64,000 bases of DNA from a bacterium (GCA_016124235.1 WGOC01000007.1:1-64000); one strand, 5' to 3'; shown: positions 1,531-59,851, numbered from the stretch's first letter. The notes: generated by a model not told the origin, from the sequence alone. Made by a program: numbers and translations.

Positions 1531-1556
1531 GGGACATGATCAGACACTTTTGGGAC
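1531..1556 (-). promoter_or_regulatory. PEP-CTERM upstream paired element, copy A
   Basis: Read with the gene this is GTCCC, 4 nt, GTG, 9 nt, GTCCC, with 21 bp between the starts of the two GTCC boxes. The near edge is 118 bp before the start of the gene at 1412. Three other copies with identical spacing stand before the other three PEP-CTERM genes. Two direct half-sites about two helical turns apart suggest binding of a dimeric regulator; this function is inferred. Confidence 0.65.
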
Positions 1557-2137
1557 CCACCACCAGTCAACCGTCAATAACCGGGACGGGAGAAATCCCT
1601 GTCCAATTTCCCCCGACTGGCTATCCCTCGGAAAACGGTTCAATTACCTCGGGAGGGTGCGCCGGAAACCACAAAACCGTGGCGACTTGAATATCGAGCT
1701 CTGCGCGACCAGTTCGCAGCTCCCCGCCCTGTCTCGTCTGGTATCATCGTCCGTGTGTATCCGTGCTTATGTGTGGCTAAAACTCTGGGTCTCCGAGGTG
1801 AATTTGCATAACCTGTGTTCCTCGGGCTTAAGTGAGCGGCACCCCTCGGGGGGCCAAGTTACACGAGGCCAATATGATCAGCCTCAATCAGTTCAGATCA
1901 GCGGTAAAAAACGGTGCGCGTGATGGTCCTCGTCCTCGCCCTAATCGTCCACAAGTTGGATCCACCTCTCTGAGTTGGCCTGATTGCCACACCCTTGGGA
2001 GGGACGGCAGGTTGCCGACCCCAACCATTGAGCCTCGACAGGGTTTCAAAAGTGGGGCCATCCATTCGCGTAAACCATCTATTACAAACAGAGCAAAACC
2101 TTAGGCCGGAAATCGATTTTCTTTGCTTCAAACAAAT
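1557..2137. other. Intergenic stretch without a credible gene
   Basis: ORFs on both strands here have no domain, signal peptide or neighbour logic and look like chance. Around 1749-1784 there is a short repetitive phrase of the type GTCCGTGTGTATCCGTG, and a related one occurs at 283-307 (GTGTTTGTCCGTGGCGATCC). It looks like a dispersed non-coding repeat. Confidence 0.5.
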
Positions 2138-2161
2138 AGGCCGGTCTTGCAAGACCGGCCT
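2138..2161 (-). terminator. 24-bp perfect palindrome after second PEP-CTERM gene
   Basis: A perfect 24-bp palindrome centred on TTGCAA (arms AGGCCGGTCTTG and its complement), 37 bp beyond the stop codon at 2199. In the direction of transcription it is followed by the moderately T-rich ATTTGTTTG. It is most likely an intrinsic terminator, although its exact symmetry also fits a dispersed palindromic repeat. Confidence 0.65.
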
Positions 2162-2198
2162 ACCATTTGGAAACGAGAAATGAAATGATGCTAGCGCG

Positions 2199-2759
2199 TT
2201 AGGCCCCGCGATTCCTCCGCACAATCCGCGCCGTGCTAATCCCGAGGGGAACCAACAACAACATCCCGGCAAGCACAGTCGACGGTTCGGGAACGGCAAC
2301 AACGCTCACGTCATCTATGAATGCCGACTGAGTACCGCCGTCATTCCACGTAAATTGTAGAGACCCTACCGTTGTAGGCGTTATCACAAAGGAATATTGT
2401 TGATATGTCGTCGTAAGTGAAGGTGGCGAAACAATATCAATAACAGGTGCTGTATCCAACCCTAAGGTCAGAGTGCCTTCACCAGTAGATTTGGCCCAAA
2501 AGGTGACCAAATACGCATTACCGCCAACCATTGTTGGGAGATACTGAACCAACGAACCTGCCGACGGGGAAACGACGCCCGCATAAGTACCACTGTGAAC
2601 ATCCGCCGCAGTCGTTGTCAGTCCGTTGTTGTACCCTGACCAATTTGGAGATAACGAACCCGATTCAAATCCACCATCAATAACCAAGCTCGCTTGTGAA
2701 GCGATAGCGCTCGTAATGAGCATTCCGAACATGAAACCAAGTTTTGCTCTTTTTTTCAT
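2199..2759 (-). CDS. PEP-CTERM protein with carbohydrate-binding-like fold, 186 aa
   Basis: A small secreted protein. It has a signal peptide (MKKRAKLGFMFGMLITSAIA) and then a single beta-sandwich-like domain opening with DGGFESGSLSPNWSG and ending FIDDVSVVAV. That pattern is shared by CBM4/9-type carbohydrate-binding modules and related proteins (GFE-x-G at the start, DDVSV at the end). The tail is VPEPSTVLAG, a hydrophobic helix, then RIVRRNR. It would be exported and processed by exosortase, perhaps binding extracellular polysaccharide; the ligand is inferred from fold resemblance only. A paired GTCC element lies 112 bp upstream, overlapping the end of the neighbouring PEP-CTERM gene. Confidence 0.85.
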   Translation of the reverse strand: MKKRAKLGFMFGMLITSAIASQASLVIDGGFESGSLSPNWSGYNNGLTTTAADVHSGTYAGVVSPSAGSLVQYLPTMVGGNAYLVTFWAKSTGEGTLTLGLDTAPVIDIVSPPSLTTTYQQYSFVITPTTVGSLQFTWNDGGTQSAFIDDVSVVAVPEPSTVLAGMLLLVPLGISTARIVRRNRGA

Positions 2760-2871
2760 TTTTTAACTTTCTGGGTCGAGGTTGTTGAACTTCATCTTGC
2801 AATTATTTCCGGACAAGTCGCCGCACACGCCATCATCTAATTTTCTCGGATTAATCCGTCTAGTTAAGCAT

Positions 2872-2897
2872 GGGACATCTTTATTCACTTTTGGGAC
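2872..2897 (-). promoter_or_regulatory. PEP-CTERM upstream paired element, copy B
   Basis: Same layout as copy A: GTCCC, 4 nt, GTG, 9 nt, GTCCC, 21-bp period. It sits 112 bp before the start codon at 2759. Its distal half lies inside the last codons of the upstream PEP-CTERM gene, so the element is retained even where it must double as coding sequence. Confidence 0.65.
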
Positions 2898-3682
2898 TTA
2901 TGGTGATTCCCGCGGACGATACGAACTGTGCTAATTCCCAGCGGTATCAGTAACAGCACACCCGCTATCACCGTTGAAGCTTCCGGAACAACGATCACCA
3001 ATTGGTCTTGCACCGCTCCGGGTGCGCCCAAATTGAGAGCGTAAACCCCGTACGCCCCATTCGCGTTGTCCTTGATTGTTGTGTCATTACGACCAAGAAC
3101 CGACTCAACCAAGTCGATTAAGGAGTTCCTTACTCCGTGCGACTCATCTTCAAGCCACCAAATCGCTGCTTGCAAGTCGCCAGCCGTCGCACTCCGACCA
3201 GATCCAAAAGTGTAATCATAAACGTACGATGGATTATTAGCAGGCGCGGGATAGTTCAAATTACCCGAAGCAAACTGACTGTAAAGCCAAGCAGTACCTA
3301 TTGAAATTGGATCGCCGCCGGTCGGCTGACCTCCGTACATCGCGTTCTGACTGAATCCGACGGAGTATGACGTGCCCGGATAGAATTCCTCACTGTATTC
3401 GATGCAAAACGTCTGGAAGTATTGCTGCCCATTCAAGGTCGAACGATATCCCCAGGATGAACCATCAATCCCAGAACTGATGGTTCCGCTCGTTGACGGG
3501 GCGTATGCTCCCCAATTCACGATACTGCTCAAGCCGTCGTCAGCCACCGCCCTAAATTCGCCACCATTGTTGTGACTGTATTGCGACGTATTATCCAGCA
3601 GAACAACGTTCATCGAAGCAACCGCACCCGGTGTTGGCACGAACGCTGCCGCCACACTCGCTAATATCAAAAGACTTCTCAT
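2885..3682 (-). CDS. PEP-CTERM protein, 265 aa, VPEASTV variant
   Basis: A secreted protein with signal peptide MRSLLILASVAAAFVPTPGA. A stretch in the middle (QTFCIEYSEEFYPG, then GTAWLYSQFASG and DLQAAIWWLEDE) resembles the secreted PEP-CTERM proteins with a Cys-containing F-C-I-E core that recur in Planctomycetes and Verrucomicrobia; their function is unknown. The tail is VPEASTVIAG, a hydrophobic helix and RIVRGNHHK, so the usual PEP has become PEA. The gene ends inside the regulatory element of the next gene. A paired element stands 121 bp upstream of its start. Confidence 0.85.
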   Translation of the reverse strand: MRSLLILASVAAAFVPTPGAVASMNVVLLDNTSQYSHNNGGEFRAVADDGLSSIVNWGAYAPSTSGTISSGIDGSSWGYRSTLNGQQYFQTFCIEYSEEFYPGTSYSVGFSQNAMYGGQPTGGDPISIGTAWLYSQFASGNLNYPAPANNPSYVYDYTFGSGRSATAGDLQAAIWWLEDESHGVRNSLIDLVESVLGRNDTTIKDNANGAYGVYALNLGAPGAVQDQLVIVVPEASTVIAGVLLLIPLGISTVRIVRGNHHKSQK

Positions 3683-3803
3683 ACTTCGTTATTGACCTAT
3701 TTGATCGCCAGAAGAACTCCGCTCCACACTTCACTTTCCCGACTGGTTCTCAACTTACGTGTTTCGTTATCCTCCTTTTCCCCATTCAGATCTATCGTCT
3801 GCG

Positions 3804-3829
3804 GGGACACGTTTTGACACAATCCGGAC
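3804..3829 (-). promoter_or_regulatory. PEP-CTERM upstream paired element, copy C
   Basis: GTCCG, 4 nt, GTG, 9 nt, GTCCC, again with 21 bp between boxes and 121 bp before the start codon at 3682. Between the boxes only GTG is shared with copies A and B, so the similarity is not simply a recent duplication of the whole region. Confidence 0.65.
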
Positions 3830-4417
3830 ACGGGATGACGCCGGCCCGGAACGAGGAACAAACCACGCAAATCCTGAACGCACTAAACAGCAAGTGGCTA
3901 TTTGAACACCCCCAAGACAACGATTCTGGGGGGTATCGGAATACTCGGAGCAGTGCTGCGACACGGGGATTTGGCTTACAATGAAGCCAACCAACGCGCG
4001 CAGCGCACCTGCGAACCTTTGGGGTAACCGGAGGCGAAGTTCCCTGCCCAGAAACCCGCCGATTGAATGGTATCTGACTGAACGGATGGCCGGCGTAGCG
4101 GCTGCCTCGCTCAATGAGCCGCTATGGGTAAATCGACATCTACACGCCTCGCCACCAAGACCATTGTGCGCGACCAAATCGCGAGCAAAGTCTGATCCGC
4201 CGTCCTTGGCCAAGGTACATCGTGACGCAGTCTACGAATCCCGCGCAACGAACTCTGAATCCAACTGGCCAGGGAATCGTATAACAAGCTCCCAAGATTG
4301 GACTCAGTCACGAGCATGCGGGAAATCATGAAGCCATCAGCGGATGAAGAATTCAGCGCAAGTTCTGAGTTGGAACCGCCTAACTCCGCTTGCGCATTGC
4401 GAGTCAAACAAATCAAC
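3830..4417. other. Intergenic stretch, possibly decayed coding sequence
   Basis: There is no intact gene. On the plus strand an ATG at 4124 opens into MGKSTSTRLATKTIVRDQIA before a stop after 23 codons. Further on, another frame reads plausibly to a stop near the end of the adjacent PEP-CTERM gene. This could be the remnant of a small gene broken by frameshifts, but I recognise no family. Confidence 0.3.
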
Positions 4418-5092
4418 TCATGAGCGCTTTCTGTTCCTCAGAACACGAATCGTTCCCACGCCGAGCGGCAACAACAAAAGCGCGCCCGCGACAATGGTGG
4501 ATGGCTCAGGAACAGCGACGGCGCTGATTACGAAATCATCTACGCGCGATGTACCAGATGTACCGCGTGGCGCCGAAATTGCCACCAACCGCAAGTAAAT
4601 GCTGGAAGCGTCATTCAAATCCATGACGGACGAAAGATCCGCTGTATGCACAGAACTCGACGAACCTGTTGAGCTGCCCCAGCTTGCTGTACCAACCGTG
4701 TAGGATGGCCCAAAGGAGCTAAATGCGGTGCCATCGCTGCTGTATTCGAGGCGGAAATCTGTTGGTCCCGTTTCGCTGCTGGTTTGCCCCCACGACAAAG
4801 TCAAACCAAGATAGCCTTCCGTGCTGACTTGAAACTGCCAATAATCACCGACTACCCAGGTATTCGCGCTGAAAGACTCGCCTGAACCGTTGCCAACGGG
4901 GTTGCTATACACTGCATCACTTGATGCATGCCATCCCAAGGCCGAGCCAACGCCCTGTTCCGGGGAAAACGGGCCGGCGGTTGACGGGGCAGTCGTTTCA
5001 AAAGTCCAATTCGCAATCGTAATCGACGCCTGACATGTCCAAGCACCAACCAATAGTGAGTAGCTTAAAACCAGAATAGTCTTCAGTACCAT
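4418..5092 (-). CDS. PEP-CTERM protein, 224 aa
   Basis: A secreted protein with signal sequence MVLKTILVLSYSLLVGAWTC and a beta-rich body. The body contains ITIANWTFETTAPS near the start and LGLTLSWGQTSSETGP, FRLEYSSDGT and DDFVISAVAV later, a pattern seen in concanavalin-like PEP-CTERM proteins. The tail is VPEPSTIVAG, a hydrophobic helix and RVLRNRKRS. Its role, surface attachment or matrix component, is inferred from the family. It is the first of the four clustered PEP-CTERM genes in transcription order and has its own paired element 89 bp upstream, so the four are probably transcribed separately. Confidence 0.85.
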   Translation of the reverse strand: MVLKTILVLSYSLLVGAWTCQASITIANWTFETTAPSTAGPFSPEQGVGSALGWHASSDAVYSNPVGNGSGESFSANTWVVGDYWQFQVSTEGYLGLTLSWGQTSSETGPTDFRLEYSSDGTAFSSFGPSYTVGTASWGSSTGSSSSVHTADLSSVMDLNDASSIYLRLVAISAPRGTSGTSRVDDFVISAVAVPEPSTIVAGALLLLPLGVGTIRVLRNRKRS

Positions 5093-5181
5093 TGATGTTC
5101 TCCACTTGATTCGGAGGTGATTATGCCAGCCTCGTCTTTTCCATTATCCGATGGAGCAAGCGCTGAGTGCTATCCTTCATT

Positions 5182-5207
5182 GGGACATGTTAATTCACGA
5201 TTCGGAC
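5182..5207 (-). promoter_or_regulatory. PEP-CTERM upstream paired element, copy D
   Basis: GTCCG, 4 nt, GTG, 9 nt, GTCCC with the same 21-bp period, 89 bp before the start at 5092. It lies between this gene and the stop of the NusG-like gene at 5258. Confidence 0.65.
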
Positions 5208-5257
5208 ATTTGTGATCTGACACCGAAGAATACTAAATGTCCTGAACACTGGCCCAT

Positions 5258-5746
5258 TTAAGTCGGCACCAATTGATCGGCATCCATTTTGATCGCGGCC
5301 GCTTGACTGATGAAATCCATCCGTAACAGGACGGTGTTCATGCCGTGGCGCTTTTCAACCCAGCCTTCAACGCCTTGCAAGGGGCCGGATTTGATCCGCA
5401 CGCGCATTCCTTCGGTCACCGCCGGCGCGAGTCGAACTTCCAGATTCGAATCCAACGCGAGCAGGATGTCCTCAAGTTGATTTGAAAAAGTTTCCTGATC
5501 AAATACCTCGAGCAAATTGGCAACGTGTTCGTTTTGCCGGATGGATCCGACATCGCGCGCCATCATTTGCAGGAACACGTAACCGGGAAAGAGCGGTTTG
5601 CGAAAGGTCACGACCTTGCCGCGATAGCGATGCGCGGAATCATAGCACGGCAACGTCACTTCAATCCCGTGCCGTTGACAATAATCCGCGAGCTTCTTTT
5701 CTCTTCTGGGTTTCGCGTGCGCAACCCACCATTTGATCTCTGACAC
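5258..5746 (-). CDS. NusG/RfaH-type specialised antitermination factor
   Basis: A 162-aa paralogue of the elongation factor NusG. The N-terminal NGN domain starts WWVAHAKPRREKKLADYCQ and contains the family signature FPGYVFLQM. The C-terminal KOW-like part runs from TEGMRVRIKSGPLQGVEGWV to the end. Housekeeping NusG normally sits beside secE and rplK; this copy does not, and its length and divergence fit the UpxY/LoaP/RfaH group, which lets RNA polymerase read through long exopolysaccharide or secretion operons. It lies next to four PEP-CTERM genes, and PEP-CTERM/exosortase systems usually accompany exopolysaccharide production. Its target operon is not visible in the window. Confidence 0.85.
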   Translation of the reverse strand: MSEIKWWVAHAKPRREKKLADYCQRHGIEVTLPCYDSAHRYRGKVVTFRKPLFPGYVFLQMMARDVGSIRQNEHVANLLEVFDQETFSNQLEDILLALDSNLEVRLAPAVTEGMRVRIKSGPLQGVEGWVEKRHGMNTVLLRMDFISQAAAIKMDADQLVPT

Positions 5747-5986: not shown

Positions 5987-8900
5987 CTACTCCGTGGCCG
6001 CTCGGGTGACTTCGATTCGATAGAATCGGTTTTCGGTCGCGGCTCGCGCATCGTTGAACTGTAGCGTCGTTCCCGTTCCGGGGACGCCCTCGATGAGCAC
6101 TTGCCAGGGCTCGGTCGATCCAAGCGACGGCAGATAACTTAACCCGTAGATGCGATCGATAACCGTTGGCCACGTCAACACGATGTGATCAGTGCCCGTA
6201 TCGATGTACGAATCGAGTCGCAACACCGAAAGCGCGTCCGCCGGATTGGTTCCCGCGATCACTTCCTGCGCGTCGAGAGCGCCGTCGCCGTCTGTGTCGG
6301 TAGCGGGAGCGACAAATTCAAACGCGCCGATGTCGACCACCGCGAGGCCGTCATTATTGCCGTCCAGCGGCCGGCCGATTCCGTCGAAATCGTACGATGC
6401 CGCCACGCCCCCTAATCCACCGGCGTCGATGCATGGGGAAGTCGCCAGCAAATGAAAATCACCGGTGCTTCGATCAACCAATTGTGGATCGGTGATTAGA
6501 TCATTCACGCTGGCGGTCAGATTGATGTAGTTGACCGCGTTGCTGTTGTTCACGCAATTGCGCCGCAATTCCGGATAGTAGTAGGATCCCGGATGCCGCC
6601 AGAGGCCTGACGAATTGGATGCCACGATATTGTTCAAGACCAACAGGTTGCTGCGGATCAATGTCATCGCGATGCCGCCACCCATCTCGGTTCCGAAGTT
6701 GATCGGCGCAGAATTGCCAACGATCGTGTTGTGCGCGAGCACCAGATTCGTCGTGTTCAGATTAACGAAGCAATTGATCCCGCCGCCCATCCCACCGCCG
6801 CCGGCTGTCACGTCGTAAGCGCGATTGTCCACGATGACATTGTTCAGCACGCGTCCCGCATCACAGCTTTGCAGGCTTAACCCCGCACCAGTGCTGGCAA
6901 TCTGGCCGCGGATGGTGTTGCCCTCGATCAGGAAGTCATTCATCAGCTCCATGGCCACGCCACCCTCTTGGGATCCAAGATACGTGGGTAGCGGGTAGCT
7001 GTTGTACATCGAGTTGCTCTCGACGGTGTTGTGGGTGAAGCGCACATTGGATAACGTTCCATAGTACGCGGAGCCAATCCGCGAGTGATTTGCGGTAAAG
7101 GTATTTCGGTCAATATCTGCGAATGATTCCCGACTGTAGATCCCTCCGCCCGCGCCATCGAACTCGTTCAGGTTTTCGTTTTGCAAAAACGTATTGCCGG
7201 TCACAACGGCGTGACTCAAGTACGCATATATGCCCGCGCCGTGGGCTAGCGCCGGGGTAAACGGACTGCCGATCGAATTGGTGCAAATGACATTGTTGGC
7301 GATTACCGGGGCGCTGACACGGCAGTAAATAGCGCCGCCGAGTGTTGTGTTCGTCCGGTACGGAAGTTCGGAATGCAACGGATTGCCCGCCGTGAACAGC
7401 CCTCCATTTTGAAGAATGAATCCGTCCAGGCCACTGACGCGATAACCCGCGTTGCGGCTGTACAAAATGCGCGGTGTCCCCGCTCCATCGAGAATCGTCG
7501 GATGGGTCTTCGCATCGCGCTGATTGCGCTGGCTCTCGCCACCGGTAAATCCGCCGTACAGATGAACAAATGCCGGCAGTTGGACGTGTTCAAAATAGAC
7601 GCCCGCTGCGACCCACACGTCGCCACCTTGCGACGCGGCGGTTTCAATGCCGCCGGCAACCGTGGTTCGCGCGGTCGCCCAAGAAAGCCCGTCGCCGTCG
7701 TTGCCCGCCTTGCTGACATGAATAACGGGTGTCGGAATGTTCCAGGCCGTTCCGTCGGATTCGTCGGCGCCAATGTCCACCGCCGCGCCCAAAACGCGCG
7801 GTTGTCCATCGATGTCCGGCAGATCAACGAACGCGATCGCCGTTGATCCCGCGTCAATACACGGCGACCCCGGTTGCAAATGGAATTCGCCCACTTGGTC
7901 GTTCGCCAGGAGAGGATCGGCCGAGATGTTGCCGTCGGTTCCGGTCACGTCCGGAGTTGTTCGATAATTCGATGGAGCGCCCAGCACGCTGTTCCCGAAA
8001 ACATTGTTGTAGCGCAGCACGACCGGTTCGTGGAATGTGGAATTGTGTTCAAATCCCCAGGTGTTGTAGGCCACCAGATTATTGTCATTGGTCGGGGAGG
8101 TATTCGCCCAATAAATGCCGGAGCCGTTGTTCGCGATCACCGAGTTGTTTTTGATGTTCGCCGCACCCATCGTGGAATCAATCACGGCAATGCCACCGCC
8201 GTGGCGAGCGCCGTTGACGGCCACGATGTTGTTCACAATGCGCGGCGAGCTGATCGAAAACGGAATCGGGCGCCCATCAAGATCCGTCGCGGACGCAAAT
8301 ATTCCGCCGCCGCCCGTGCTTGCCGTCAACTCATCGTAGCTGGCCGAGTTGGCTTCGATGACGTTGTTCGCGATCACCGGAAACGAGTGTCGCCAACATG
8401 CGATGCCGCCGCCGTTGCGGGTCGCTGTGTTTCGCGCGATCAGGTTATTTACAATAAAGGGAGAAGAGCCGACCACGGCGATCCCTCCACCATCGCCCTC
8501 ATCGTTGATTGATTGGTTCTCGACGATGATGTTGTTGGTCACGACCGGGAAATAGGCTTCGGTGCTGCTCAACAAGAGGAACCCCCAAATGCTCATTCCC
8601 GCACCGGCACCGTCCGTGATGTTGCCGGTGATACGGCAATGGGCAACCACCGCGCCGGAGCCGGTCATTTTGATCCCGCCACCATGAATGGCGAGGCCGC
8701 CGGTAACGACCATGCCGTCGATGCGCGTTTCGGGTCCACCACCGTTGATCACGACAACTGCGCCGGCGTATTCACCGTCCAGAATGCTGAGGTTGTTCGT
8801 CCAATCCCGCTGTTGTTTTGACGTCTCGGTCCCATCGAATCCGCCGTAAAGGTCGGCGCCACTGGGCATCGTGATCCGTTCCAGATAACGCCCCGCCGCG

Positions 8901-35578: not shown

Positions 35579-37069
35579 ATGAGTAGAATCGAACACCTGC
35601 CGCCCAATTTTGGGCGGCTCGACAAGGCGCTGCGATCAATTGGATACAGCTTTGAGGCCGCCGTTGCCGACATCATTGATAATTCCATTGATGCGAAGGC
35701 AAGGAATGTTCTGGTTCGATTCATTTTGCGAAAAAACAAGGCGCTGGACCTTGTTATCTTGGACGACGGCAACGGGATGAGTCCCGACACTTTGAAGGAA
35801 GCCATGCGGTTCGGCGCGGACGTGACACAGGAGTTGGACAGGCTTGGCAAATTCGGCCTCGGACTGAAGCTCGCTTCACTTAGCCAGGCGAAGGAGCTCA
35901 GAGTCGTCACGTACGAAGGCTCGAAGACTTCCGGCCGGGGATGGCTTGAAGAGGGAATTTCCTCCGGCTTCATGTCCACCATCCTCGAAGCCTCTGAATG
36001 TCGTGACATGCTCAAGCTGATTGTGCCCGACCGGCCATTGAAGAAATCGGGAACGGTGGTGTGGTGGTCTCATCTTTACCGCGTCGGCCAGAATCACTCC
36101 AGCCCGAATGAACACGCGCAAAAACTGATGCGTCGGCTGAAGGATTACCTGTGCATGGCCTTCCACCGGTTTCTCTCTGGCAGTCCGCGCCTGGTCAAAA
36201 TGGAGATCGACATTTTTGACGGCGATTCGAGCCTTGAAGGGCTGCCGCTTCCGTTGGAGCCCCTCAACCCATTCGGATACGACGCCACCGGACTGAAGGG
36301 CTTCCCGGCTGAATTGGTTCCCGCTGACGGATATGAGAATCGCATCAAGATTGTCGGCCATATCTGGCCGCCAAACTCATCCGCGCCCGAATACGCTTTG
36401 CCCGGCGGTGCGAACAGCCGGCAGGGATTCTATTTTTATCGCAACAACCGGCTGATTCAGGGCGGCGGTTGGAACGGAATGCGTGAAGCCGAGCCCCATC
36501 GCTCACTTGCGCGTCTGGAAATTGATATGCACCCGGATTTCGATATGGACGTCAGCCTTGACGTAAAGAAGGTCGAAATCCAGTTGCCGCCGGACCTCGT
36601 AAAGGGCATTCAGCGGTCAAAGACTGACGCCGGCACCGATTTCAAAAAATATCTGTCGCTTGCCGAGGAAACCTACCGGACAAAACCTGTTACCGAGGAC
36701 GAACTGCCACTGATTCCCGTGGATGGCCTGCCTGCCGACCTCCGCGATTTTCTCCTCAAGGAACTCAGGATCGACGGCACCAAGCGATTTCGGAAGCTTC
36801 GCTTCGCGTGGACGAATCTGGACGAGGATTCGTTTTTTGAATTGGATCGCGACAATGACACGCTTCGCCTGAACAAAATCTATCGCCGCCAGCTCTTGCA
36901 TGGTCTGGATGGTTCGTCTGCGGACATCCCCGTTGTAAAGTGTCTGCTTTTCCTTGTTCTTCGCGACGTTCTCTATTCACAGCGTATCAGCGCAAAAGTC
37001 CGGGAACGCATGGATCAGGCAAACCGCATCCTCGCTCGCGCCGTGAAGCATGAGCGCAGCGTTGAGTAA
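35579..37069 (+). CDS. MORC-like GHKL ATPase of a restriction system, 496 aa
   Basis: The N-terminal GHKL (Hsp90/MutL/MORC-type) ATPase domain is clear: the N box EAAVADIIDNSIDAKA, the G1 box ILDDGNGM and the G2 box LGKFGLGLKLASLSQ. A downstream region (FYFYRNNRLIQGGGWNG, RLEIDMHPDFDMDVSLDVKK) matches the S5 fold, with its conserved lysine in DVKK. Prokaryotic MORC-like proteins of this type are known from restriction-modification neighbourhoods with Z1-type helicases, PD-(D/E)XK proteins and cytosine methyltransferases, which is exactly the order here. It probably clamps or remodels DNA during restriction. Confidence 0.88.
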   Translation: MSRIEHLPPNFGRLDKALRSIGYSFEAAVADIIDNSIDAKARNVLVRFILRKNKALDLVILDDGNGMSPDTLKEAMRFGADVTQELDRLGKFGLGLKLASLSQAKELRVVTYEGSKTSGRGWLEEGISSGFMSTILEASECRDMLKLIVPDRPLKKSGTVVWWSHLYRVGQNHSSPNEHAQKLMRRLKDYLCMAFHRFLSGSPRLVKMEIDIFDGDSSLEGLPLPLEPLNPFGYDATGLKGFPAELVPADGYENRIKIVGHIWPPNSSAPEYALPGGANSRQGFYFYRNNRLIQGGGWNGMREAEPHRSLARLEIDMHPDFDMDVSLDVKKVEIQLPPDLVKGIQRSKTDAGTDFKKYLSLAEETYRTKPVTEDELPLIPVDGLPADLRDFLLKELRIDGTKRFRKLRFAWTNLDEDSFFELDRDNDTLRLNKIYRRQLLHGLDGSSADIPVVKCLLFLVLRDVLYSQRISAKVRERMDQANRILARAVKHERSVE

Positions 37070-37070
37070 C

Positions 37071-38054
37071 ATGAAAAAAACGGCATACATGTCGTGGCAG
37101 AACTTCTGCGCGACCATCATTGTTGAGGGCGAGCAGCGAACGCACAAGGTGTCCGCCTCCCCAAGGGTGGATTTCTTCTGGGATGGACGCGGGAAGCGCA
37201 TCGGCCTGTGGCTTGAGACTGCCCCGGACACGGTTCTTTCGCCCGAACTTCAGAAGCTGACCTTTGTCGGCCTCGACGTTGTCAAAGTCGGGCAGCGGCA
37301 TTTCCTCGAAATTGCCACCCCATCCAAGCCATTGAGGCGGCAGTTTTATTACTTCGCTGTCGCAATCACAGAACGCATGCTCTCCGCCGGTGTGTCTGCG
37401 CTGCAAGCCGTGACTGTGGAATTGCAGTGTTTTGCCGACCTGCTGGCCGAGCGCCCGACACTTGGAGTCGAACGTCAGATTGGATTGCTGGGGGAACTGA
37501 TGTTCTTGGAAAGGTTGGCCCTGTCAAAAGGTGTTCAGATGCTGGATTGTTGGGTTGGTCCGGACGCCGAGCCACACGACTTTCGACTCGACGCGCGCGA
37601 ATTTGAGGTGAAGACGACTGTTGCACCCAAGCGCGTGCATATCATCCACGGCGGCGAGCAGTTGGTTGCCTCCAAGGGGTGCTCGCTGTTTCTCCTGTCT
37701 GTCTTGCTCGGCCCTCCCAGCGACTCATCTAGCTTCTCGCTTGCTGGCAAGGTGCGAGACGTTGAGCGGCTTCTCGCCACGGATGCAGCTCGCAAGAAAC
37801 GATTTCTTGAAGCACTAGAGAATGCCGGCCTGAAAAAAGCCGACCTCCCTCAATACGGCCGCAAGTATTCACTCCGTCGCGCCGTGGCCATCGTTCCCGT
37901 GGACGGCAAGTTTCCGGCGTTGACCCGGCCCGCGATCCAGAAGGCCATCGGTCCGTTATCACAGCGAATCGAATCCCTGCAATACGCCGTGAACCTTGAG
38001 GGCCTCGAAAAGGAGGAGGGCACCCCGCAATTCGCCGCCGTCGTTCCCTCATAG
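37071..38054 (+). CDS. PD-(D/E)XK motif protein (DUF4420-like), 327 aa
   Basis: Candidate nuclease of the restriction cassette. The active-site pattern appears as DFRLDAREFEVKTTV: Asp in the first strand, then Glu-x-Lys in EVK. Before it, VERQIGLLGELMFLERLAL supplies the family's conserved glutamate helix. The start at 37071 lies one base after the upstream stop; an ATG at 37050 would overlap it. It is followed after 12 bp by the Z1 helicase gene. The family (PF14390) almost always occurs with MORC-like and Z1 proteins. Confidence 0.8.
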   Translation: MKKTAYMSWQNFCATIIVEGEQRTHKVSASPRVDFFWDGRGKRIGLWLETAPDTVLSPELQKLTFVGLDVVKVGQRHFLEIATPSKPLRRQFYYFAVAITERMLSAGVSALQAVTVELQCFADLLAERPTLGVERQIGLLGELMFLERLALSKGVQMLDCWVGPDAEPHDFRLDAREFEVKTTVAPKRVHIIHGGEQLVASKGCSLFLLSVLLGPPSDSSSFSLAGKVRDVERLLATDAARKKRFLEALENAGLKKADLPQYGRKYSLRRAVAIVPVDGKFPALTRPAIQKAIGPLSQRIESLQYAVNLEGLEKEEGTPQFAAVVPS

Positions 38055-38066
38055 GCGGATACTCGT

Positions 38067-41042
38067 ATGACACATCACTTGGACAGAATCAAAGCAGCGC
38101 TTGGCGCGATGACCGATCGCCCTCGCGCTCTCGTTAGCTACCTTCAAAAGCCCGGTCCGGACTTTGACGCGGCCAGCGACCAGGACGTGGCGAAGATGTT
38201 GTCAGCGATTCTCTCCACTGATCCGAACGACCCGACACGGATTAGGTTTTCCAATTTGTTGCACTCATGGGATAACGCCAAGGATGGAGAATGGTTCGGG
38301 CAGACCCTCCGAAACTCAGCGGCCCGTCGCACCCGCATCCATGCTTTGCTAAAATCAGACAAGGCCCTCGTCGAGCGGATTGACTCGCTCCTGCCTTTCT
38401 ACCCCTTGGATGAGCCGCTCATTATCGCCGAGGATCACGCGGACTGGTATGTCCCATCAGTGGGAGTGCGGGATTATTACTGGCGGACCTATACCAAGTA
38501 TCTCCGGGAGCGGCGCGGTTGGCGTGACGAAGCACTGCTCAACCTTGATAACAGCACGCGCAGCATACTTGAATGCCTCTCGAACCCGGAGTCCAACAAC
38601 GTCTATTCCTCGCGCGGGCTGGTGATGGGTTACGTCCAAAGCGGTAAGACCGCCAATTTCGCCGGCCTTGTCGCTCGCGCCGCTGATGCCGGCTACCGCC
38701 TCATCATTGTGCTGGCAGGCACGTGGAACATCCTGCGCAACCAAACCCAGCGCCGGTTCGACAAGGAACTTCTTGGCAAAGAATTGCTCCACAATGACGA
38801 CACCTACCAAACCCGGCATCCTGCTGATTGGGATGAATTCCTCGAACATGGTGCACACCCAGAGGATCTCGGCCACTATACCTGGCGAAGGCTGACCCGG
38901 CCGGACATTGATTATCGACGACTGAAGGCGGCGATCGACGACCTCGAGTTCGAGATGCGTCACCGGCCCCTACCGCTCTACGATCCGAAGAACTTGCACC
39001 ATCTACCCGTCAAGCTGTTGGTGGTGAAAAAAAACAGCCATGTTTTGGGCAAACTCGCCAAGGATTTGGAAAGTCTGAGGACTAAACTTGCAGAGATTCC
39101 TGCTTTGGTAATTGACGATGAATCAGACCAAGCTGGTTTGAATACCGTCGATCCCACCAAAGCTAAAACACCTGCAAAGCCTGAAAAGTCCTCTGCGAAG
39201 AAGGAAAAAGAACGCACTGCAACGAATGAGGCGATTGTGCGGCTCCTGAACCTGCTGAGGCGCGGCCAGTATGTCGGCTACAGCGCTACGCCCTACGCGA
39301 ATGCGTTGGTGAATCCCGACGACCCCGAGGACCTTTTTCCGAAGGATTTCATCATCTCCCTGGATCGTCCCATCGGTTATATGGGCGTCTCCGATTTTTT
39401 TGATCCGTTCGTTGACTATGACGATTTGAAGCAGGGTGATTTTTCCCAAGCGGAACTGGCGTTCATCCGGCGTGTCGAGGCATCCCAAGTGGAGGATGAT
39501 GAGGATTTGAAACGGGCGCTCCGCAGTTATGTCATCGCTGGCGCGGTGAAGCTTTATCGCCAAAGTCAGGATGCCGCCCTTTACAAGCCCGAGTCGCTTA
39601 AACATCACACCATGCTCATTCACACTTCTTCCCGCAAGGGGGCGCATGCATCGCTCGCGGATCGGGTTAAGGAGTTATGGGACCAGTGCGCCTTCAACAG
39701 TCCGACTGGATTGGAAGACCTGAAGGAACTTTGGGAGTCGGATTTCCTGCCGGTTTGTCAGGTTCAGGGGAAAGACGAACTTGTCCCCGCGTCGTTCCGT
39801 GAACTCAAGCCACACCTTGCCGCCTCGGTCCAGAAGATCACCCGCGACTCGCATTTCGTCAGGGTGGTTAACAGTGATAAGCATGAGGCACCCGATTTCA
39901 CCCGAGGCCCGGTTTGGAAGATTGTTGTTGGCGGCAACAGCCTCTCGCGCGGCTACACCGTCGAGGGTCTCACGGTGAGCTATTATCGGCGCGTGGCGAA
40001 CACAGCAGACACGCTGATGCAGATGGGCCGCTGGTTCGGTTTCCGTCCAGGTTATCGCGATTTGGTTCGCGTGTTTCTCGGCGTCAAGGAGGGTAAGAAA
40101 CAGTCAGAAGATTTGGTCGCGCGATTCAAGGAAGTCTGCCGGATGGAGGAACGTTTCCGCGAGGAGATCAAGCGCTATGTCCGTCGCCCCGATGCTCCGC
40201 GAATCACACCGCGACAGATTCCGCCATTGATTGCCATTTCAGGGAATCTACCACCAACGGCTCGGAACAAGATGTTCAACGCTCAACTTGATCGGAAGAA
40301 TTTCGGCGACCAGTGGGAAACTCCAACCGTTACCGCCGCTAAACCAGAATCTTTGGATAAGAATCTTGAAGCGTTGCGAAAACTCCTTGGCGCTGCATCG
40401 GGCCTAGGTCGCCATATATTGGGTGGGGACTTAAGCGACGGAACAGGTGCAACTGCGGATTGTCTGGTCTTTGAAGCGTCCAATGAATGTCTGGCCTCTT
40501 TCTTGAACGACTACCGGTGGCTTGAATCAGAATACACGCATCCTGAGCGTCCCGCTGACGTCGGTCTCCAGATTGAATTTCTCCAAAAACAAAAGCACGC
40601 AATCACGTCTTGGTTGCTTCTGTTTCCTCAGATTAAGACCTCGTTTGGCCCTCCGCTTGACCTAAATGCGTTAGGCGAGTTCACCGTTAAGAAGCGCAAG
40701 CGAGTCGGACAACGTTTCGGAATATTTGGCGAGTCCTCACATCACGCAATCGCTGAGTTCATGGCCTCAAAGAAGGACAAGCAGAAGATTCAGCTTGTTT
40801 CCTCAAATGAAGCGACAAAACACCTTCACAAATTGCACCGAGGCATTGCACTATTTTACCCAGTCCGCGAGACTGAAAGCCAGTCAGTCTCCATTGGCTT
40901 CGAGCTGTTATTCCCCGCGAACAATCTGTCGTTTGACCTTGGTTTCACGGTGCGCCGGAAATCCGAAAGCGCACGGATCGTTGTGCCAAGTTCTTCTGGC
41001 GCCGCCCGGGAGGAAGATCCCGCCGACCGCGGAATCCATTGA
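38067..41042 (+). CDS. Z1-domain superfamily II helicase/ATPase, 991 aa
   Basis: A large ATPase with helicase motifs in order: Walker A GYVQSGKTANFAGL, Walker B LVIDDESDQAG, the SAT-like motif VGYSATPYANAL, then the Z1-type segment SLSRGYTVEGLTVSYYRR and the C-terminal arginine motif MQMGRWFGFRPGYRDL. The G-Y-(V/Q)-Q-SGKT and MGRWFGFR signatures identify the Z1 family. It is predicted to translocate on or unwind invading DNA in concert with the MORC-like protein and nuclease. Its TGA overlaps a possible TTG start of the methyltransferase. Confidence 0.88.
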   Translation: MTHHLDRIKAALGAMTDRPRALVSYLQKPGPDFDAASDQDVAKMLSAILSTDPNDPTRIRFSNLLHSWDNAKDGEWFGQTLRNSAARRTRIHALLKSDKALVERIDSLLPFYPLDEPLIIAEDHADWYVPSVGVRDYYWRTYTKYLRERRGWRDEALLNLDNSTRSILECLSNPESNNVYSSRGLVMGYVQSGKTANFAGLVARAADAGYRLIIVLAGTWNILRNQTQRRFDKELLGKELLHNDDTYQTRHPADWDEFLEHGAHPEDLGHYTWRRLTRPDIDYRRLKAAIDDLEFEMRHRPLPLYDPKNLHHLPVKLLVVKKNSHVLGKLAKDLESLRTKLAEIPALVIDDESDQAGLNTVDPTKAKTPAKPEKSSAKKEKERTATNEAIVRLLNLLRRGQYVGYSATPYANALVNPDDPEDLFPKDFIISLDRPIGYMGVSDFFDPFVDYDDLKQGDFSQAELAFIRRVEASQVEDDEDLKRALRSYVIAGAVKLYRQSQDAALYKPESLKHHTMLIHTSSRKGAHASLADRVKELWDQCAFNSPTGLEDLKELWESDFLPVCQVQGKDELVPASFRELKPHLAASVQKITRDSHFVRVVNSDKHEAPDFTRGPVWKIVVGGNSLSRGYTVEGLTVSYYRRVANTADTLMQMGRWFGFRPGYRDLVRVFLGVKEGKKQSEDLVARFKEVCRMEERFREEIKRYVRRPDAPRITPRQIPPLIAISGNLPPTARNKMFNAQLDRKNFGDQWETPTVTAAKPESLDKNLEALRKLLGAASGLGRHILGGDLSDGTGATADCLVFEASNECLASFLNDYRWLESEYTHPERPADVGLQIEFLQKQKHAITSWLLLFPQIKTSFGPPLDLNALGEFTVKKRKRVGQRFGIFGESSHHAIAEFMASKKDKQKIQLVSSNEATKHLHKLHRGIALFYPVRETESQSVSIGFELLFPANNLSFDLGFTVRRKSESARIVVPSSSGAAREEDPADRGIH

Positions 41043-41065
41043 ACAATGAAACGGCAGTCTCCGAA

Positions 41066-42607
41066 ATGTCGCACCCCATCCCCGTCATAGACTTGTTCGC
41101 CGGTCCCGGCGGTTTGGGTGAAGGCTTCTCCCGCTGGCGTGGCCGCGACCGCAAGCCCATGTTCAAAATCCGGCTTTCGATTGAAACGGACCCGTGGGCG
41201 CACCGCACGCTTTTGCTCCGCTCGTTCTACCGCCAGTTTGATTCGGCCAACGTGCCGGCCTCCTATTATCAATATCTGCGCGAAGAAATCGAATTTGATG
41301 ACCTAGAACAAAAATTCAAACCGGAGTTCGCCGCCGCACGCGAGGAAGCGTGGCAGGCCACGCTTGGAAAAACGGACTCTGAGGAAGTCAGTTCGCGCAT
41401 TTCCTCGGCCCTCGGCCGGGAGCGTGACAATTGGCTGCTGATTGGCGGCCCGCCGTGTCAGGCGTATTCCCTTGTCGGTCGCTCGCGCATCATCGGTGAA
41501 AAAGGCCGCGCGGAATACGAGAAGGACCATCGCCATTTTCTCTACCGCGAATACCTCCGCATCATCGCCCGCCACCAGCCTGCGGTGTTCGTCATGGAAA
41601 ACGTCAAGGGGCTGCTGTCCGCGCAGGTTGGTGGTCAACCGATGTTCCCGCTCATCCGCGCCGACCTTCAGGACCCGCTCCAGGTCTTTCCCGATTTGCG
41701 CGCTGATTCCCGCCGCAAGAATCTCCACTACACGCTGTTTTCCCTTGTTGCCCCGCGCGATCTCGCGGGCGATTTCGAGTCTTCGGATTTCATCGTGCGG
41801 GCGGAGGACTACGGCATACCCCAAGCCCGGCATCGCGTCATCATTCTTGGTGTGCGCGGCGAAGCGGCCATGCAGCCCGGTCTGTTGCGCTCTGTTGACT
41901 CCGTATCCGTCCGCGAGGTCATTAGCGACTTGCCCCCTCTCCGCAGCCGGCTGTCATCAAAGGACACGCCCGAAGCGTGGGGCGCAGCCGTTCGTGCTCT
42001 CTCCGCTGTGCGCCTGAGCGACAAATCAAACGGCGCCGGACTGAGCCGCGCTGAATTGGAGCGGGAACTGAAGCGCATCCGTCCGCATCTTCCCGTCGGC
42101 GGCGCATTCGCTCCCTGCCAGACCAGACCGGCGCAGCATGAGCGATGGTATGTGGATCGCCGCTTGGGTGGAGTTTGCAACCACGAAACACGCGGTCACA
42201 TTGCCGAGGATTTGCGTCGCTACTTTTTTGCGGCAGTGTTCGCCGCTGCTTCCAACCCGCCGCGCTCCCCTCTGTTGCAGGATTTCCCCACGAGCCTGCT
42301 GCCCGATCACAAAAACGTCGGCGAGGCGTTGAAGACAACCAAGTTCAACGACCGTTTCCGCGTCCAGCTTGCTGACCGTCCTTCGACAACAGTTGTGTCG
42401 CACATTTCCAAGGACGGCCATTACTACATTCACTACGACCCGTCGCAATGTCGCAGCCTTACAGTGCGCGAGGCGGCACGGTTGCAGACGTTCCCCGACA
42501 ACTATTTTTTTGAAGGCCCGCGCACCGAACAATACCACCAGGTCGGCAACGCTGTGCCGCCATTGCTGGCCTACAAAATTGCAAAAATTGTGGCCGACAT
42601 TTTTTGA
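41066..42607 (+). CDS. DNA cytosine-5 methyltransferase, 513 aa
   Basis: Self-protection enzyme of the cassette. All main C5-methyltransferase motifs are present: I (PVIDLFAGPGGLGEGFS), IV with the catalytic cysteine (GGPPCQAYS), VI (VMENVKG), VIII (ARHRVIILG), a target-recognition region, and X (QVGNAVPPLLAYKI). The start at 41066 was chosen near motif I; a TTG at 41039 overlapping the Z1 stop as TTGA would add nine residues. Its recognition sequence cannot be read from the protein. A vsr-type repair gene follows, as usual for 5-methylcytosine systems. Confidence 0.9.
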   Translation: MSHPIPVIDLFAGPGGLGEGFSRWRGRDRKPMFKIRLSIETDPWAHRTLLLRSFYRQFDSANVPASYYQYLREEIEFDDLEQKFKPEFAAAREEAWQATLGKTDSEEVSSRISSALGRERDNWLLIGGPPCQAYSLVGRSRIIGEKGRAEYEKDHRHFLYREYLRIIARHQPAVFVMENVKGLLSAQVGGQPMFPLIRADLQDPLQVFPDLRADSRRKNLHYTLFSLVAPRDLAGDFESSDFIVRAEDYGIPQARHRVIILGVRGEAAMQPGLLRSVDSVSVREVISDLPPLRSRLSSKDTPEAWGAAVRALSAVRLSDKSNGAGLSRAELERELKRIRPHLPVGGAFAPCQTRPAQHERWYVDRRLGGVCNHETRGHIAEDLRRYFFAAVFAAASNPPRSPLLQDFPTSLLPDHKNVGEALKTTKFNDRFRVQLADRPSTTVVSHISKDGHYYIHYDPSQCRSLTVREAARLQTFPDNYFFEGPRTEQYHQVGNAVPPLLAYKIAKIVADIF

Positions 42608-57309: not shown

Positions 57310-57474
57310 TTAGTCATTTTTTACAACCGGCGGCGGCGGATCACCCGCCGCCATTTCAAACGACTTGAGTTCGACACGCCAATCTGAAATCATCCCGCCC
57401 TCGGGATGGTAAAAGTGTGAACGTCTGAAGATCCCAGAGCCGTTCACGCGCAGTTCAACGCACCAGTCAGGCAT
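57310..57474 (-). CDS. Possible small protein divergent from kinase, 54 aa
   Basis: From an ATG at 57474 the minus strand gives MPDWCVELRVNGSGIFRRSH, then FYHPEGGMISDWRVELKSFE and a short acidic tail. Its ATG shares the CATG of the sensor-kinase start on the other strand, which would be an extreme divergent overlap. The composition is plausible but there is no family, so it may be a chance frame. Confidence 0.3.
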   Translation of the reverse strand: MPDWCVELRVNGSGIFRRSHFYHPEGGMISDWRVELKSFEMAAGDPPPPVVKND

Positions 57475-59848
57475 GGACGAAATCTCCAAGCCCAAAGCGC
57501 CAAAGTCAAACATCGCGCGGCCAGTCATGTTGGCGGTGAAGGCGGCTGTTCTCTACTTTCTGTGCGCGGTGCTCTGGTTTGCAGTCCTCGAACGGCTGGC
57601 CCGGCGGGTGACAACCGATCCAGAACGCCAGGAACTGTTCAAGGGACTCACGGGCCTCTTTTTTGTCATTGGCTCCGCCGTGCTCATCTCCATACTCATT
57701 CGCCGGGAGTTCATCAAACAGCAGCGGGCGCAGGCGATCATCCAAGCGGGCCAGGACCGGCTTGCCAGCATCATCTCCTCGGCGATGGACGGTATCATTT
57801 CGGTGGACCCGCAACAGCGCATCGTGCTCCTCAATCCAGCGGCTTCGCAGATGTTCGGTTTCCCGGAAGATCAACTGCTGGGGCAACCTTTGAGTCGATT
57901 GATCCCCGCCGGAATCCGGCCCGCTCGTACGGAAAAGGCAGGCGGGCCGGGCGCACCCGAATCACCGGATGCAAGGTCACGGATCAACAAGACCGTCTCG
58001 GGTCTGCGCTCCGACGGCGTCGAGTTTCCCTTGGAAGTCTCACTATCCGGGAGAGATGCCGGCGCGGACCATGCCTCGACAATTGTTTTGCGTGACATCA
58101 CCGAACGCAGGGAGGCCGAACAGAAGCTCCGCACCCAACTGGCGCGCCTGGACCTGCTGAGCCGCACAACCCGCGCCATCGGCGAGCGCCAGGACCTGCC
58201 GAGCATTTTCCAGGTGGTGATCCGGAGCCTGGAGGATCATCTGCCCATCGATTTCGGCTGCGCGTGTCTCTGCGACGCGGCACTTGAATCGGTCACCGTT
58301 ACCAGCGTTGGCGTCAAAAGCCAACCCCTCGCACTGGAGCTGGCCATGACCGACCGGGCACAAATCAACGTCGATCAAAATGGCCTGTCGCGGTGCGTGC
58401 ATGGCGAACTGGTCTACGAGCCGGACATCGCGCGGGTTCCCTTTCCCTTTCCGCAACGCCTGGCCCGGGGTGGTCTGCGTTCTCTGGTCATCGCGCCGCT
58501 GCTGGTGGAGAGCCGGGTCTTCGGGGTGCTGGTTTCCGCCCGTCAAAGACCGCATGCCTTCAGCAGCACGGACTGCGAGTTCCTCCGGCAGCTGAGCGAG
58601 CATGTCGCCCTGGCGGCCCATCAGGCGCAGCTTCACGGTGCCCTTCAGCGGGCGTACGACGAACTACGCCAGACCCAGCAGGCGGTGATGCAGCAGGAAC
58701 GGTTGCGGGTGCTGGGCCAGATGGCCAGCGGCATCGCCCACGACATCAACAATGCGCTCTCGCCGGTGGCCCTGTACACGGGCTTTCTGCTGGAAACCGA
58801 GTCAAGCCTGAGCAAACAGGGCCGTGAGTATCTGGAGATCATTTCACGCGCGGTGGACGATGTGGCGGCGACGGTGGCGCGCCTGCGGGAATTCTACCGC
58901 CAGAGAGAGCCGCAGCTGACACTTGTCCCTCTGCCGTTGAACCGACTTGTACCGGAGGTGATCGATCTCACTCGCGCCCGTTGGAGCGACATGCCCAATC
59001 AACGGGGGGCGGTCATCCAGATCAAGACGGAACTCATGGACAACCTCCCCGCCATCATGGGCGTTGAAAGTGAAATCAGGGAGGCCCTCACCAACCTGAT
59101 CTTCAACGCCGTGGACGCCATGCCCGCTGGAGGCACCCTGAAATTGAGAACCGGGGTACGGGAAGACGGCGTAGTCGTCGTCGGCCCGACCGCAAGGCAG
59201 GTGTTCGTCGAGGTGACCGACAGTGGCATCGGCATGGATGAGAATACGCGTCGACGATGTCTTGAACCGTTTTATACCACCAAAGGTGAGCGGGGTACCG
59301 GCCTGGGCCTGGCGATGGTCTACGGCGTGGTTCAGCGACACGGCGCGGACCTGGAAATCATGAGCCAGCCCGGACAGGGAACGACGTTTCGCCTGAACTT
59401 TGCGATTCCCCAAGACGTGGTTTCGCCAACCACGGTAACAAGCGCCGCATCACCCACCTCCAGGCGTTTGCGCATTCTGGTCATTGATGACGATCCAATC
59501 CTGCTCAAATCCCTGCGCGACATCCTGGAAAGCGATGGCCATGTGGTGGTCGCCGCCAATGACGGCCGGGAGGGGATCAGCGCGTTCCATGACGCCCGGG
59601 AACGGGAGGAACACTTCGATGTGGTCATCACCGACTTGGGAATGCCGTACCTGGACGGACGCAAGGTTGCCAGCGCGGTCAAGGCCACCGCGCCGTCGAC
59701 TCCCGTCATCCTGCTCACCGGCTGGGGCCAGCGGATCGTTGTCGAGGGGGATGTGCCGCCGGAAGTGGACCAGGTTTTGAGCAAGCCGCCGAAACTGAAC
59801 GATCTTCGCGGCACCCTGACCCGCTTGTGCGCGCAACCGAACTCCTGA
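57473..59848 (+). CDS. Membrane hybrid histidine kinase (PAS-GAF-HisKA-HATPase-receiver), 791 aa
   Basis: Domains in order: two membrane helices (VMLAVKAAVLYFLCAVLWFA; LTGLFFVIGSAVLISILI), a PAS domain (SAMDGIISVDPQQRIVLLNP, about 100-215), a GAF domain (about 230-380), the HisKA dimerisation helix with phospho-acceptor His423 in SGIAHDINNALSP, an HATPase (DSGIGMDENTRRRC, GERGTGLGLAMVYGV), and a C-terminal receiver with phospho-acceptor Asp721 in VVITDLGMP. No DNA-binding output is present. It lies 3 nt upstream of the receiver-kinase gene. The signal it senses is unknown. Confidence 0.9.
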   Translation: MDEISKPKAPKSNIARPVMLAVKAAVLYFLCAVLWFAVLERLARRVTTDPERQELFKGLTGLFFVIGSAVLISILIRREFIKQQRAQAIIQAGQDRLASIISSAMDGIISVDPQQRIVLLNPAASQMFGFPEDQLLGQPLSRLIPAGIRPARTEKAGGPGAPESPDARSRINKTVSGLRSDGVEFPLEVSLSGRDAGADHASTIVLRDITERREAEQKLRTQLARLDLLSRTTRAIGERQDLPSIFQVVIRSLEDHLPIDFGCACLCDAALESVTVTSVGVKSQPLALELAMTDRAQINVDQNGLSRCVHGELVYEPDIARVPFPFPQRLARGGLRSLVIAPLLVESRVFGVLVSARQRPHAFSSTDCEFLRQLSEHVALAAHQAQLHGALQRAYDELRQTQQAVMQQERLRVLGQMASGIAHDINNALSPVALYTGFLLETESSLSKQGREYLEIISRAVDDVAATVARLREFYRQREPQLTLVPLPLNRLVPEVIDLTRARWSDMPNQRGAVIQIKTELMDNLPAIMGVESEIREALTNLIFNAVDAMPAGGTLKLRTGVREDGVVVVGPTARQVFVEVTDSGIGMDENTRRRCLEPFYTTKGERGTGLGLAMVYGVVQRHGADLEIMSQPGQGTTFRLNFAIPQDVVSPTTVTSAASPTSRRLRILVIDDDPILLKSLRDILESDGHVVVAANDGREGISAFHDAREREEHFDVVITDLGMPYLDGRKVASAVKATAPSTPVILLTGWGQRIVVEGDVPPEVDQVLSKPPKLNDLRGTLTRLCAQPNS

Positions 59849-59851
59849 ACC

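Follow-up and report, generated by a model that had tools for sequence, protein, structure and literature searches.

Promoters of PEP-CTERM genes in the proteobacterial PrsK/PrsR system carry a 17-nt motif ending in TTTACA, a spacer of ~63 nt and a -24/-12 sigma-54 site, and are served by the NtrC-like regulator PrsR (Haft et al., 2006; PMC1569441). That study reported its cis-element only in Proteobacteria and noted that other regulators and DNA motifs still awaited discovery (PMC1569441). Here we examined a bacterial DNA stretch of 64,000 nucleotides (GCA_016124235.1, WGOC01000007.1:1-64000; hereafter the window), in which a paired element with the pattern GTCCS-N4-GTG-N9-GTCCC, present in four copies between positions 1,531 and 5,207, precedes four PEP-CTERM genes. 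The element is probably the binding site of an autoregulated activator of the AraC/XylS type, which would drive a PEP-CTERM regulon from a sigma-70-like promoter. As in the PrsK/PrsR system, a dedicated cis-element stands before many scattered PEP-CTERM genes and the regulator is often encoded near an exosortase or exopolysaccharide (EPS) locus; unlike that system, the element consists of tandem repeats at 21 bp that border a -35 of the sigma-70 type, and the candidate regulator belongs to the AraC family. Since motif, sigma factor and regulator class all differ, the window system is not a member of the proteobacterial one, though it does the same job.

A comparable arrangement has been footprinted at the MtlR promoter PmtlE (AGTGC-N5-AGTAT-N7-AGTGC-N5-AGGAT), where two direct half-sites lie upstream of the -35, of which the upstream one is stronger and is followed by an A-tract (PMC4514859). 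The element studied here, read from sequence alone, resembles PmtlE in repeat length, spacing, place, the better-conserved upstream half-site and the A-tract after the first box. For XylS at Pm and AraC at the araBAD sites I1-I2, too, there are two direct half-sites, each bipartite, which are spaced by 21-22 bp and end at the -35. Unlike MtlR, XylS and AraC, which serve operons of sugar or aromatic catabolism, the present site is scattered over surface-protein genes and has a different half-site sequence. The YSIRK-adjacent regulator (TIGR04094) is likewise an AraC-family protein tied to a class of sorted surface proteins, but it belongs to a Gram-positive sortase system, and the present candidate matches it weakly, in the helix-turn-helix (HTH) part only (25.6-34.3 bits against a cut-off of 200). 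A literature search found no PEP-CTERM paper linking AraC, and the half-site string occurred only in four papers, all with unrelated titles.

Four copies of the element in the window

The four copies are exact and lie on the minus strand at 1531-1556, 2872-2897, 3804-3829 and 5182-5207. When up to one mismatch was allowed on both strands of the whole window, only these four were found (0.30 expected), and shuffled controls never reached four copies. All copies point toward their gene and are separated from the likely start codons of genes 1, 2, 3 and 4 by 118, 112, 121 and 89 nt, respectively; the positions given in an earlier sequence-only reading of this DNA, 89-121 bp before the start codons, were thus confirmed for all four. 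The copy at 2872-2897 covers the final 13 bases of the preceding PEP-CTERM open reading frame (ORF, 2885-3682), as expected from the claim that the motif is kept even where it overlaps coding sequence.

The four window proteins have a PEP motif, a hydrophobic helix and a basic tail, and share the tail subclass PEPSTxxAGxLLLxPLGxSTxRIxR; exosortases were present in all 25 genomes tested, including their own. A search with the subclass tail found only the four window genes in this genome, whose assembly is 3.89 Mb and 56% complete. A slightly looser motif pattern gave six matches there, the four window copies and two GC-rich singletons, and two matches in the reversed control. With a 10-nt instead of a 9-nt gap, a scan of contigs of named genomes gave 16 scattered matches, which represent shifted-spacing background only; the AT-flanked form with the right spacing reads GTCCSRAWWGTG-N7-ATGTCCC. 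The 3-kb loci of the other PEP-CTERM genes of the genome, which have different tails, contained no motif, and their best position weight matrix (PWM) score was 5.3 vs. 31-45 at the window sites. We concluded that the motif is tied to a tail subclass rather than to exosortase substrates as a whole; the expectation that it would also stand before the other PEP-CTERM genes of the genome held for all subclass genes in the window and failed for genes with other tails.

Occurrence of the motif among relatives

The motif was followed in 293 genomes of the order (order sample) and in 387 further genomes of the phylum, nearly all outside the order (phylum sample). The exact pattern is present in many of the order genomes and most of these copies are due to chance; an AT-rich set recurs across families (e.g., GTCCCAAAAGTGTACTAAGATGTCCC), and most of the 20 regions read around such copies lead into genes ending in PEP(S/T)TxxAGALLLLPFGASTxRxLRK, a tail type reminiscent of Verrucomicrobiota of the Pedosphaera group. 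At one mismatch, the full motif was absent from the 387 genomes of the phylum sample.

Subclass genes were collected by protein alone with a tail profile (A1), itself seeded from motif-bearing loci, and occurred in 38 of the 293 order genomes. Usable upstream DNA was available for 99 genes; the core motif with up to two mismatches was found on the gene strand in 67 of them vs. 2 on the opposite strand, and de novo Gibbs sampling upstream recovered ATGTCCCAAAAGTG...ATGTCCCA in 79. To offset this seeding, a PWM built from the seed loci only was applied to genes outside them: at a score of at least 10, 44 of 73 genes had a site vs. 2 of 73 on the opposite strand. Genes with stronger tail matches more often carried the motif at up to two mismatches (45/51 at E<1e-13, 9/26 at E>1e-9).

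The constrained positions are kept while their neighbors vary, and the motif recurs across families, which bears out the statement that the window copies are not copied background. As for the motif standing before unrelated genes, 921 control ORFs of at least 200 aa from exosortase and regulator loci included 15 with an upstream motif, all of them PEP-CTERM ORFs or ORFs of the AraC gene described below, overlapping frames included. The motif was also seen before PEP-CTERM genes with generic tails (locus L075 near 4220, contig G176:C88; locus L400 at 6548-7598, contig G043:C42), so the regulon is not confined to the tail subclass in every genome.

Promoter anatomy

A profile was made from 68 aligned sites and numbered from the first G of GTCC (position 1). 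It shows AT-GTCCC-AAAA-GTG at -1 to 12, an AT-rich stretch at 13-19, AT-GTCCC-A at 20-27 and a weak G at 33. Self-similarity of the profile gave a single peak, at a shift of 21, and the second unit (positions 20-33) repeats all of the first, the half-site ATGTCCCAAAAGTG at -1 to 12, with a weaker second box. In the 99 subclass upstream regions, a GTCCC-GTCCC distance of 21 bp was found in 32 pairs and any other distance at most once, in accordance with the two half-sites two turns apart of the earlier reading. That reading did not include the AT flanks, the AAAA tract, the elements resembling a -35 and a -10, or the repetition of the whole first unit.

The repeats are followed by a conserved -35-like sequence, A35-T36-A/T37-G38-A39, of the T(A/T)GA(C/T) type, and positions 59-64 are enriched in TA-rich hexamers. 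In 41 of the 68 sites, vs. ~10 expected, the best TATAAT-like box was separated by 16-18 bp from the preceding hexamer at 36-41 (P~1e-17, calculated with a flat expectation). ATAGA had been considered as the -10 box and was dropped, as the -10 appeared at positions 59-64 and ATAGA fitted the -35. Apart from the repeat and the boxes resembling a -35 and a -10, nothing is conserved over ~95 nt of the 68 sites, and neither a -24/-12 (GG/GC) sigma-54 element nor the TTTACA motif was found among them, so the sequence-only reading was also correct on the lack of a sigma-54 promoter. By its sequence, the element thus resembles a promoter of the sigma-70 type whose weak -35 comes immediately after two head-to-tail half-sites. 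The AraC/XylS layout was written down as a hypothesis from the DNA alone, before any regulator was known.

Candidate AraC regulator and receiver protein

Clustering of 562 ORFs from exosortase loci for a conserved regulator brought out none, and the candidate was taken from the motif targets instead. A PWM scan of the collected loci gave 118 sites scoring at least 20, of which 79 have a PEP-CTERM-like gene downstream; two families recur downstream of the remaining sites, a receiver-only response regulator (~127 aa) and an AraC-family protein (~350 aa). Their genes are often adjacent and sometimes divergent, each with its own motif (as in G096 and G208). The C-terminal double HTH of the AraC candidate scored 80-82 bits with PF12833 (cut-off 33.6) and 60-64 bits with PF00165 (cut-off 26.6), and its PDB matches are to the HTH domains of AraC, Rob, MarA and SoxS. 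Orthologues are sharply set off (E<1e-75) from other AraC proteins (E>1e-50), except for pieces at contig edges and one intermediate (G225). Both recognition helices are near-invariant among 28 orthologues and different in relatives outside the group.

The AraC orthologue was found in 23 of the 29 genomes with strong subclass genes, including the genome of the window, vs. 9 of the 264 others (P = 1.3e-21, Fisher's exact test, a value made too optimistic by shared descent). About half of the orthologues examined have an upstream motif. The gene lies within ~10 kb of an exosortase gene in G276, G208, G096, G137, G199 and G176; in the genome of the window it is at C27:108969-109766, directly before genes of an export protein resembling Wza and a kinase resembling Wzc, as read by eye. 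The dedicated regulator of exosortase substrates that the sequence-only reading had proposed is right in kind; its classical DNA-binding response regulator is unsupported, as the motif-sharing genes point to the AraC family, the accompanying response regulator is receiver-only and LytTR proteins are missing from several motif-rich genomes.

A receiver-only response regulator cannot bind DNA alone. The protein has TDNSMPGMTG around the phospho-acceptor (L077, L240, L246 and L355), whereas the copy in G137 (L354) reads TENSLAGMTG, with an acidic substitution at the acceptor. In G148, the AraC orthologue (L375, G148:C53:15845-16576) is broken by an in-frame TGA, yet the genome has many motif sites. 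Motif-positive genomes contain several exosortase types, of which one, encoded near the AraC gene and ~550-600 aa long, scores above cut-off with none of the named exosortase models; the exosortase of the genome of the window (G000:C32) is closest to XrtC, at 249 bits vs. a cut-off of 300.

Proposed mechanism

In the mechanism we propose, each half-site ATGTCCCAAAAGTG offers two boxes, GTCCC and GTG, spaced by about one helical turn, and two such copies stand head to tail at 21 bp. The half-sites directly abut a poor -35 of the T(A/T)GA(C/T) type, with the presumed -10 at 16-18 bp. A lineage-specific dimer of the AraC/XylS family would bind both half-sites, so placed that the downstream subunit adjoins RNA polymerase, and would activate transcription; the transcript is expected to start at about position 71, counted from the first GTCC. 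The same promoter often precedes the AraC gene and the linked receiver gene, and the circuit would thus be autoregulated; phosphorelay input through the receiver protein is probable.

Several observations weigh against this activator model. In six of the 29 subclass-positive genomes (G083, G090, G109, G180, G224 and G242) the AraC orthologue was not found even in a sensitive rescan; four of the six are at least 94% complete, all are drafts, and G083 and G090 are motif-rich. No AraC protein near the group was found in the motif-positive genomes G090, G180 and G224, and only distant ones in G083 and G109. The orthologue may be absent from motif-positive genomes because the assemblies have gaps or because a different regulator has taken its place, or the model may be faulty. 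Conversely, nine genomes have the orthologue without strong subclass genes. The AraC gene of the genome of the window has no motif in its upstream region, approximately one third of the subclass genes, chiefly those with the weakest tail matches, lack a recognizable site, and window promoters 1 and 2 have weak -10 boxes.

Alternative explanations

It is unlikely that another regulator, for example a response regulator of the LytTR, NarL or OmpR type, binds the site and that the AraC and receiver genes are mere targets. LytTR regulators of the AgrA and ComE type also use direct repeats ~21 bp apart next to the -35, and the six subclass-positive genomes without an AraC orthologue would fit such a regulator. 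However, the LytTR family (PF04397, E<=1e-4) is absent from 8 of the 29 subclass-positive genomes (G109, G131, G148, G224, G234, G254, G278 and G280), two of which, G148 and G234, are rich in motif sites. Its enrichment with subclass genes is minimal (P = 0.01), the co-occurrence of AraC being far tighter. LytTR had come into consideration through the 21-bp spacing, and its absence from these genomes led to its rejection as a general explanation. No other DNA-binding family was seen to recur among the motif targets or in conserved exosortase-locus clusters, a result obtained without profiling of NarL and OmpR types. Alternatively, the AraC protein could bind the site but mainly repress or act dually, silencing the PEP-CTERM genes until an EPS-related signal arrives. 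Members of the family can repress, autoregulation is common among them and the site often occurs before the AraC gene too; we nevertheless regard repression as quite improbable, since a site upstream of a poor -35 that leaves the -10 uncovered is in the position of an activator.

The chance is slim that an alternative sigma factor resembling the extracytoplasmic function type recognizes the boxes itself, as elements of the core promoter: the fixed spacing to the downstream box and the strand-specific orientation would suit a sigma factor, but two like 14-bp units 21 bp apart together with a separate -35/-10 pair are unlike a two-element sigma promoter, and no sigma-factor gene was seen among the listed motif targets. 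That the four window copies are functionless duplicates of one ancestral upstream region is hardly credible. Although the four genes are clustered and have the same tail, only the constrained positions are conserved, and in many of the order's families the motif stands before subclass genes; it also precedes unrelated AraC and receiver genes. Its persistence in families whose flanking sequences diverge already refutes copied background.

The PEP-CTERM genes and promoters of the window

All genes and promoter parts of the cluster are on the minus strand. Gene 1 (657-1412) encodes an XDD4-type exosortase-dependent surface protein (NF045504, 81.5 bits vs. a cut-off of 40) with the tail PEPSTVIAGLLLVVPLGLSTVRIVRRNR. 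Its promoter (PWM score 44.8) has a putative upstream half-site (GG)GTCCCAAAAGTG at 1545-1558, a downstream half-site ATGTCCCAAGCAGG at 1524-1537, 21 bp away, and a -35-like TAGATG at 1516-1521, with no good -10 at 16-18 bp. Gene 2 (2199-2759; tail PEPSTVLAGMLLLVPLGISTARIVRRNR) gives a weak CBM_4_9 match, and its promoter (PWM score 45.2) has half-sites AAGTCCCAAAAGTG at 2886-2899, overlapping the 3' end of gene 3, and ATGTCCCATGCTTA at 2865-2878, followed by a -35-like TAGACG at 2857-2862 and a weak -10. Gene 3 (2885-3682; tail PEASTVIAGVLLLIPLGISTVRIVRGNH) is preceded by half-sites GTGTCCGGATTGTG at 3818-3831 and GTGTCCCCGCAGAC at 3797-3810 (PWM score 30.8), a -35-like TAGATC at 3789-3794 and, after a 17-bp spacer, a -10-like GATAAC at 3766-3771. 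Gene 4 (4418-5092; tail PEPSTIVAGALLLLPLGVGTIRVLRNRK) has half-sites ATGTCCGAATCGTG at 5196-5209 and ATGTCCCAATGAAG at 5175-5188 (PWM score 44.9), a -35-like TAGCAC at 5167-5172 and a -10-like GATAAT at 5143-5148 with an 18-bp spacer.

Directly upstream of the cluster, at 5258-5746 on the same strand, lies a gene of an UpxY/RfaH/NusG-like antiterminator (NF033644, 73.6 bits, below the cut-off of 100; PF02357), which has no motif copy. Elsewhere in the window, a short tandem array of CATCTCC/CATCTGCTATCTCC units occupies ~140-275. A run of plus-strand genes at 35579-42607, beginning with a GHKL-ATPase-like and ending with a DNA cytosine methyltransferase-like gene, looks by eye like a defence or restriction-type cluster. 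The stretch 57473-60970, not near the PEP-CTERM cluster, encodes a large sensor histidine kinase and, after it, a protein that combines a receiver with a histidine kinase.

Implications for surface-protein control

The regulator gene is often found beside exosortase or EPS-export genes, which suggests that production of the polysaccharide matrix and of its sorted proteins would be switched together. The wider proposal is that of a PEP-CTERM regulon outside Proteobacteria in which an AraC activator and a stand-alone receiver are both under the tandem-repeat type of promoter. The resulting feedback circuit would link a phosphorelay to the activator and, within one order, turn on the export of the matrix jointly with the exosortase substrates; we give this proposal an even chance. 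The element would be a second cis-element for PEP-CTERM genes, unrelated to the proteobacterial one, and it comes with a candidate regulator and a target list in another lineage. The motif can serve as a marker that picks one tail subclass among the many PEP-CTERM genes of a genome, and the results make the control of exosortase-sorted surface proteins in this lineage testable.

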